Of a stretch of 64,000 bases of DNA, positions 28,121-29,086 are shown one piece after another (position 1 is the stretch's first letter; every line of letters begins with the position of its first letter). The position numbers and the translations under genes were made by a program. The stretch is taken from contig CANGXP010000001.1 of assembly GCA_947457935.1 (NCBI GenBank), positions 68,065-132,064 of the forward strand, read 5' to 3'. The notes beneath the pieces were generated by a model, which was not told the origin of the DNA, searched no databases, and saw only the letters and a program-made list of their open reading frames with translations. The stretch is from Alphaproteobacteria bacterium (lineage in GTDB: Bacteria > Pseudomonadota > Alphaproteobacteria > JAJTHO01 > CANGXP01).

Positions 28121-28183
28121 GATTGCTTTGTAAATGTTTTGACAGGGTTTTAAAAAACGCGCATAGTTCTAACATACAATGGT

Positions 28184-28202
28184 AATGCTGCAGTGCAACA
28201 TT
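28184..28202. promoter_or_regulatory. Upstream PhaR-like operator of the phasin gene
   Basis: The dyad ATGCTGC-AGT-GCAACAT, with core TGC-N3-GCA at 28189-28197, lies just upstream of the phasin -35 element. Identical arms recur at 28250-28272. Known alphaproteobacterial PhaR sites are of the TGC-N3-GCA type; assignment to PhaR is inference. Confidence 0.55.
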
Positions 28203-28207
28203 TGCTC

Positions 28208-28236
28208 TTGACATTAACGATTTGGTAGCACATATA
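28208..28236 (+). promoter_or_regulatory. Phasin promoter
   Basis: TTGACA (28208-28213) and CATATA (28231-28236) are separated by 17 bases. The element sits between two identical-arm dyads, leaving room for repression by a bound regulator. Confidence 0.6.
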
Positions 28237-28249
28237 GCATAAAAGAGAG

Positions 28250-28272
28250 TTTATGCTGCAACGCAACATAAA
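28250..28272. promoter_or_regulatory. Downstream PhaR-like operator of the phasin gene
   Basis: A 23-base palindrome with one mismatch, TTTATGCTGC-AAC-GCAACATAAA read in parts, has the core TGC-N3-GCA at 28257-28265. It lies in the 5' leader, centre to centre 68 bases from the upstream copy and about 20 bases before the ATG at 28295. Confidence 0.6.
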
Positions 28273-28294
28273 TGAACAATGGAGACAAAACATC

Positions 28295-29086
28295 ATGACG
28301 ATCCCTTCAAACACCTTTAAACCTTCTACAACTTCCCCTGTAACCTCTGCTGCGCAAACCGCTAACCAAGCGACTAACGCTGCAAAATCTGTTGCGACAA
28401 GCGCTGGAAACTCTCTTGCTTCTTCTGTGGTAGCTAACCTTAAGGCTGCAGCCGCTGCAAGCAAGCCCGCTGTTGCTAAGCCTGCGGCAAAAGTTGCAGC
28501 TAAAACAAGCGCTGCTGCAACGGTAAAAAAAGTTGCTGTTGTAAAAAAAGCGACAACCGCTAGCGCCGCTGCGTCTAAAAAGACCACAAGTGCAAAATCA
28601 GCTGTAACGAGCAGTGCTGCTTTTAGCAATAAGGCAACGTCCTCTCTGCAAGGCAGCAGCAAAACAGTCAATGAGACAATTAGCAACTCTGTTAAGTCCC
28701 TCCAACAACAAGTCGAGAAAGTGAACCAAACCATGATTAAGAACAACCAAGAATTCAGCAAGTTTTTTGAAGACAACCTGAACTCAACCTTGCAAGCATT
28801 CAACATCCTTGCAAAAAGCTCTGAAGAAATCAGCAAAGCCTACTTCTCTTTTGCGCAAAACACATTAGAGAACAACATTGCTGCTGCAAAATCTTTGTTC
28901 TCTGCACGCAACGCACAAGAAGCGTTTGACCTGCAAAGCAAAACAGCAAAAAGCAACATTGATTCTTTAATCAATGAAAGCACCAAGCTGTCACAACTCA
29001 GCATTGATGCGGCAAACAAAGCGATGCAGCCTATCCAAAGCCGCATCAACCAAACTGTTGAGAGCATCATCAAAAAAGCAGCGTAG
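28295..29086 (+). CDS. Phasin with Ala/Lys-rich N-terminal region
   Basis: The product has 263 residues from ATG at 28295, which has GGAG ten bases upstream; an upstream in-frame ATG (28253) falls inside an operator. Residues 50-106 are a low-complexity Ala/Lys/Thr stretch with repeated AAK, KKV and AKP units, like the histone-like tail of PhaF-type phasins. Residues about 125-263 form an amphipathic helical phasin domain (NNQEFSKFFEDNLNSTLQAF, then RNAQEAFDLQSKTAK). Phasins coat polyhydroxyalkanoate granules. No synthase gene is in this window. A terminator follows. Confidence 0.85.
   Translation: MTIPSNTFKPSTTSPVTSAAQTANQATNAAKSVATSAGNSLASSVVANLKAAAAASKPAVAKPAAKVAAKTSAAATVKKVAVVKKATTASAAASKKTTSAKSAVTSSAAFSNKATSSLQGSSKTVNETISNSVKSLQQQVEKVNQTMIKNNQEFSKFFEDNLNSTLQAFNILAKSSEEISKAYFSFAQNTLENNIAAAKSLFSARNAQEAFDLQSKTAKSNIDSLINESTKLSQLSIDAANKAMQPIQSRINQTVESIIKKAA

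Follow-up and report, generated by a model that had tools for sequence, protein, structure and literature searches.

Described PhaR Operators and the Layout of the Window Locus

Phasin genes of several bacteria carry sites for the repressor PhaR; the phaP gene of Rhodobacter sphaeroides has two of them. At phaP1 of Ralstonia eutropha H16, one site (BS1) lies directly 5′ of the −35 element and another (BS2) around the transcription start, with a sigma-70 promoter between them and a third site predicted inside the gene; phaP3 DNA of the same organism with more than one site was shifted by less PhaR (PMC12849132). In Bradyrhizobium diazoefficiens, phaP1, with two TGC-RNY-GCA sites around the −35 element, and phaP4 have been footprinted with PhaR; combined with further promoters, they yielded the consensus TGCRNYGCASMA (PMC6201568). 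The two phaP1 sites are separated by about 29 bp, and the proximal site extends to the −10 element; altering either raised the PhaR concentration needed for a shift from 0.5 to at least 1 µM (PMC10888616). The phaP1 and phaP2 promoters of Sinorhizobium meliloti each have two palindromes flanking the −35 element; altered palindromes abolish the shifts, and repression by AniA/PhaR is lifted by PHB (PMC12542648).

The window analyzed here is a stretch of 64,000 bp; the alphaproteobacterial assembly from which it comes has 72 contigs totalling 1,825,837 bases. It contains two dyads with the exact arms ATGCTGC and GCAACAT, centred at 28193 and 28261 and thus 68 bp apart. The original prediction of identical-arm dyads at this distance around a phasin promoter agrees with the sequence in that both dyads are present, TTGACA lies between them and a PF09361 gene belongs to the locus; the first dyad begins at 28185 and not at 28184 as had been given. 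The features of the locus are as follows.

28139–28167, plus strand: possible second promoter 5′ of O1, TTGACA-N17-CATAGT, from the promoter scan, relative to which O1 would be at about +19
28185–28201, no strand assigned: O1, upstream predicted PhaR operator, ATGCTGC-AGT-GCAACAT, core TGC-RNY-GCA, centre 28193, about −50
28208–28213, plus strand: −35 element TTGACA of the phasin promoter, read by eye between O1 and O2
28231–28238, plus strand: weak −10 region, by eye, either CATATA (28231–28236, 17-bp spacer) or TATAGC (28233–28238, 19-bp spacer)
28253–28269, no strand assigned: O2, downstream predicted PhaR operator, ATGCTGC-AAC-GCAACAT, centre 28261, about +18
28281–28284, plus strand: Shine-Dalgarno-like GGAG, by eye
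28295–29086, plus strand: phasin gene, 263 aa, with PF09361 at residues 152–251 (E 2.9e-18) and TIGR01841 at residues 173–256, above its cut-off

From the promoter elements, we infer that transcription starts near 28243. The start codon was taken as the ATG at 28295 by reading the sequence. A longer frame is possible from an ATG inside O2 (28253); the position 28295 was preferred because it is preceded by GGAG and because a transcript starting near 28243 would offer hardly any space for ribosome binding ahead of 28253. The promoter scan of the window did not list the TTGACA between O1 and O2, only the TTGACA-N17-CATAGT further upstream, and the latter is doubtful since one such match was found in the scanned region versus 1.3 in shuffles. 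A minus-strand frame of 228 codons, running antisense through the phasin gene, overlaps the dyad pair and is no gene. When up to two mismatches to ATGCTGC-N3-GCAACAT were allowed, seven matches occurred in the window versus a mean of 0.96 in shuffled sequence (0 of 100 shuffles reached seven); O1 and O2, being near-palindromic, are each counted twice among the seven.

The window resembles phaP1 of R. eutropha in having one site before the −35 element, one around the transcription start (presumed in the window) and a promoter of the sigma-70 type between, and the Ralstonia motif YTKNTGCRNYGCANMAR fits both window dyads except at the outermost bases (PMC12849132). Ralstonia is a betaproteobacterium, however, and O2 of the window would reach deeper into the transcribed part (about +18); in addition, the window phasin gene contains no TGCRNYGCA that would correspond to the third Ralstonia site. 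The two TGC-RNY-GCA sites of Bradyrhizobium phaP1 are also like those of the window, whose centres AGT and AAC both satisfy R-N-Y (PMC6201568, PMC10888616). As described in these reports, the Bradyrhizobium sites flank the −35 element, whereas the window sites flank the whole promoter. Both window sites deviate by one base from the Bradyrhizobium consensus, with A where S is expected. The two palindromes per promoter in S. meliloti are likewise shared with the window, unlike their position around the −35 element (PMC12542648). The PhaR site of R. sphaeroides FJ1, CTGCNNNGCAG (Chou and Yang 2010, as quoted in PMC12542648), has the CTGC-N3-GCA core in common with the window dyads, whose right arm reads GCAA versus GCAG in FJ1. 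Judged by sequence, the window dyads are most probably an ordinary pair of PhaR operators arranged as at R. eutropha phaP1, and as such of a kind already known (PMC12849132).

PHA Genes and Other Sites in the Same Genome

A phaR homologue, which the original prediction had made a point to be checked, is encoded in a single copy at L001:1459-2034. Its product scores 131.9 bits with TIGR01848 (cut-off 109.45) and carries the PF07879 (DNA-binding) and PF05233 (accumulation) domains. In a comparison with named PhaR loci, no near named relative was found among the 80 of 400 that were kept, from which very near records may have been omitted; the best segments were 45–61% identical. The genome also contains a class I PHA synthase gene (phaC) and a phaB gene above the cut-off, located behind a frame read by eye as phaA. 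A depolymerase was not found with the PF06850 profile. Two phasins exceed the PF09361 cut-off and two more matches fall below it.

The second phasin, on another contig (L033:1266-1377), is accompanied by the dyads TTATTGTGC-GCT-GCACAATAA and ATGC-GTT-GCAC at a distance of 103 bases, and TTGACG and TATAAT lie in the interval; this bracket is the widest among 87 scored pairs. The expectation that the dyads would recur at other PHA genes was thus confirmed at the second phasin and at no other place searched. No TGC-RNY-GCA dyad precedes phaR or phaC, and with one mismatch allowed in the 300 upstream bases, phaC had no match and phaR had one, 284 bases before the gene. The roughly 215 bases examined upstream of phaA contained no dyad, while one core lies inside the phaA frame; phaZ was covered by the PF06850 search. 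On the evidence of phaR in the genome, the similar pair at the second phasin and the paired sites at phasins across PhaR-bearing genomes described below, the assignment of the window dyads as PhaR-type sites of a phasin promoter is well supported.

The exact core TGCTGC-N3-GCAACA occurs genome-wide, without mismatches, only at the two window sites. Pairs of TGCRNYGCA spaced by 45–75 bp are found at six places in the genome, and the window pair alone stands at a promoter; in the other five, a single stop-to-stop frame (257 to 784 codons) covers both sites. The strict motif TKBTGCRNYGCAVMA has 15 genomic places with no mismatch, three of them at the two phasins. Ten of the remaining 12 overlap a frame that is 70 codons or longer (those on L018, L028, and L162 near the first codons), and two, on L155 and L163, overlap none. 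These 12 are single sites, and no meaning is attached to them. The L163 dyad (L163:1501-1515) stands 49 bases 5′ of a cytidylyltransferase-like gene, the L028 site is upstream of a polyprenyl synthetase gene with a short frame intervening, and the L155 site lies between a ribonucleotide reductase gene and a frame without a match.

Survey of Alphaproteobacterial Phasin Loci

Profile searches with PF09361 matched 24 of 41 genomes and, in a class-wide draw, 254 of 386; with PF07879, draws of the same size gave 23 of 41 and 235 of 386. The survey set comprised 123 phasin loci from 111 alphaproteobacterial genomes, each read from 300 bases upstream to 30 bases downstream of the chosen start, and its PhaR-bearing subset comprised 115 loci from 103 genomes. 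Four of an earlier 39 loci were dropped, having a phasin profile E above 1e-6: L058 (a pair 30 bp apart), L150 (three sites), and L151 and L152 (none). A group of 60 regions was drawn, mostly at one per genus, from the best-scoring among the matches listed, which biases the set against weak phasins; the inclusion of G180 and G371 was deliberate, since PhaR had not been found there. Start codons were set by rule as the first ATG after a Shine-Dalgarno-like run, which is wrong in some loci (L048 and L224), and the L192 region has just 165 upstream bases.

The regions from PhaR-bearing genomes contain 216 TGCRNYGCA sites. At least one is present in 107 of the 115 regions and at least two in 89, leaving eight phasins without a site and 26 with fewer than two; degenerate second sites visible by eye in some single-site regions (L179 and L224) were left uncounted. 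Dinucleotide shuffles gave a mean of 6.6 sites, with two sites in at most 2 of the 115 regions. Among decoys, the reversed centre TGC-YNR-GCA gave one site, other centres three, and seven other palindromes from 0 to 4 each. The coding sequences of the phasins themselves, amounting to more bases, held seven TGCRNYGCA sites.

None of the four phasins from small genomes without PhaR (G009, G015, G021, and G022) has TGCRNYGCA, and one of them has TGC-CCC-GCA. The co-occurrence of PhaR and the site has a Fisher p of 6e-5, uncorrected for kinship. Four genomes in which PhaR was not found have sites all the same, G069 a single one and G334, G371, and G180 pairs. The phasins of the latter three (L188, L226, and L252, respectively) show the standard operator pair. 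Because PhaR is present in members of the same genera as G334, G371, and G180 and in the family of G069, assembly gaps are suspected, or else another reader of the site. Of the 61 sampled families with phasins read in PhaR-bearing genomes, 52 had a pair spaced by 45–70 bases. Among the order-mates of the window genome, three genomes, all with PhaR, have six phasins, one with a pair, two with single sites, and three with none.

The breadth of this sample also bears on whether O2 could act as RNA, by folding into a hairpin in the 5′ leader or contributing to a terminator, instead of being bound by a protein. The sequence TTTATGCTGCAACGCAACATAAA can indeed pair as RNA and was listed as terminator-like on the minus strand; however, the purine-N-pyrimidine centre and the TGC/GCA core are conserved in O1 and O2 alike across many loci, and O1, with the same motif, lies upstream of the favoured promoter and hence outside its leader. 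Such a role for O2 is therefore extremely improbable.

Position of the Operators Relative to the Promoter

Adjacent sites in PhaR-bearing genomes gave 109 spacings, 65 of which fall at 55–61 bases, 12 at 18–23, six at 28–32, five at 47–50, eight at 63–68, and 13 elsewhere. A pair at 45–70 bases occurs in 81 of the 115 loci. For 87 of the 99 pairs at 45–105 bases, a −35 element of at least 4 of 6 bases was found in the searched space. The centre of O1 lies 13–17 bases 5′ of the first T of this element in all 87 cases (10–21 were allowed), and the centre of O2 lies 41–45 bases 3′ of it in 68 of the 87. With the first T taken as −35, the class-typical positions are about −50 for O1 and about +8 for O2. 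In the window, O1 is placed as usual, with its centre 15 bp ahead of the −35 element, and O2, 53 bp 3′ and thus at about +18, lies about one helical turn (~10 bp) beyond that of most loci. In G001, the sole order-mate with a pair, O2 is 50 bases after the −35 element. The Bradyrhizobium layout was recovered at L189, from a genome of 8.0 Mb in which eight phasin matches were found, as two sites 29 bases apart around TTGACT, which speaks for the survey method.

An operator arrangement described in a few species thus recurs across alphaproteobacterial phasins; relative to the −35 element, O1 varies by at most two bases around one position, and O2 mostly does likewise. This regularity across the class is what lends the finding some interest. 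The literature search found no paper surveying the paired layout across the class; as subscription journals were mostly outside its reach, this is a weak negative. The TGC-RNY-GCA pair offers a ready motif for searching PhaR targets in genomes not yet studied.

The favoured explanation, to which we assign a probability of about 0.88, is that the window dyads are PhaR operators forming a steric clamp on the promoter, relieved when PHB granules titrate PhaR. Without PHB, PhaR would occupy both operators, O1 flush with the −35 element on its upstream side and O2 covering the initially transcribed bases, and would exclude RNA polymerase from the promoter or block its departure. Once granules form, PhaR would be pulled onto the polymer and the operators vacated, so that phasin would be made in step with the granule surface. 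The present analysis contributes to this explanation the sites, the promoter-like sequence, the PhaR gene, its co-occurrence with the sites and the fixed class-wide geometry, and PhaR binding to the motif and titration by PHB have been published for other species; we infer that the genome's own PhaR binds these two sites and that it acts sterically. Counting against the explanation are the one-base departures from the Bradyrhizobium consensus, the more distant O2, the sites in genomes where PhaR was not found, and the phasins with one site or none in PhaR-bearing genomes, order-mates included.

The original prediction had suggested cooperative or looped repression. In a loop, a PhaR tetramer would grip O1 and O2 together and hold the promoter in a small loop as LacI does, the pair being needed for its geometry. 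PhaR is reported to be tetrameric in Bradyrhizobium and Paracoccus (PMC10888616), and a LacI-like loop has been proposed at Ralstonia phaP1 (PMC12849132). The spacings of 48, 58, and 67–68 bp, each close to half-integral helix turns, are suggestive as well. On the other hand, a DNA loop of 58–68 bp is stiff. Under looping, the two operator–promoter half-distances would be expected to compensate each other; instead, they were weakly positively correlated, with rho of +0.18 for pairs at 54–61 bases (n = 69), +0.28 for the 82 pairs at 45–70 bp, and +0.15 with one pair per family (n = 43), although selecting pairs by the summed distance biases this correlation towards negative values. The variance of the summed O1 and O2 distances was also not below that of shuffled sums. 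The uncompensated half-distances imply that each operator is positioned relative to the promoter, as a steric block requires. In Sinorhizobium, moreover, a single site, either one, was enough for a gel shift (PMC12542648). The looped part of the suggestion is thus not supported for the window pair, where the operator–promoter distances vary independently on the two sides, and looping is considered unlikely. Cooperation has been reported for other species, and O1 and O2 may cooperate without a loop. The purpose of the second operator, whether steric clamp, cooperation or loop, can now be addressed by a spacing experiment.

A broader version of the steric clamp can be proposed tentatively, and we regard it as rather doubtful. 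The arrangement of O1 at −50 and O2 at about +8 might be an ancestral and general alphaproteobacterial coupling of phasin to polymer, in which the operators would lie on roughly opposite helix faces, O2 would be displaced by about one turn at a time (48, 58, and 67–68 bp, with the window at +18), and one PhaR tetramer would wrap the promoter without forming a loop; the steps rest on few families. For the seven families outside the main spacing class, too small a number for a phase test, the helical phase gave R of 0.51 at 10.5 bp. If true, spacing by half-integral turns would represent a type of constraint new for a repressor of this sort.

The arms of the window dyads differ from the usual pattern, in which O1 is closer to TTG-TGC...GCA-CAAAA and O2 closer to ATGT-TGC...GCA-GCAT. 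Identical four-base arms (4 + 4) at both operators were seen in one of the 85 pairs compared, that of the window. Equal arms are therefore unusual, both window sites being of the O2 type; no special mechanism is needed for them, and nothing shows that they are important. They would be explained if the locus had arisen by duplication as two tandem promoters, each with an operator at about +18, namely TTGACA-N17-CATAGT with O1 and TTGACA-N17-CATATA with O2. The distances from the −35 element to the dyad centre, 54 and 53 bp, agree with such an origin, and a promoter-like sequence upstream of O1 was found in the window pair alone among the 82 tested. On the other hand, the similarity of the segments outside the dyads was equalled in 9% of shuffles, so the alignment is not significant; chance alone would be expected to give one promoter match of this kind there, and O1 already occupies the class-standard place for the downstream promoter. 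A duplication is accordingly judged quite improbable.

Phasin Protein

Besides PF09361 and TIGR01841, the window phasin matches TIGR01985 below the cut-off of that model. Its N-terminal half (28295–28750), 150 residues long, is rich in lysine and alanine (23% A and 12% K), with a net charge of +17. This composition recalls the histone-like tails of PhaF and PhaM. At least 90 residues precede the domain in 11 of the 123 compared phasins, several of them with a like composition and some with a start that is probably misplaced. The Lys/Ala-rich half of the window phasin might link granules to the nucleoid.
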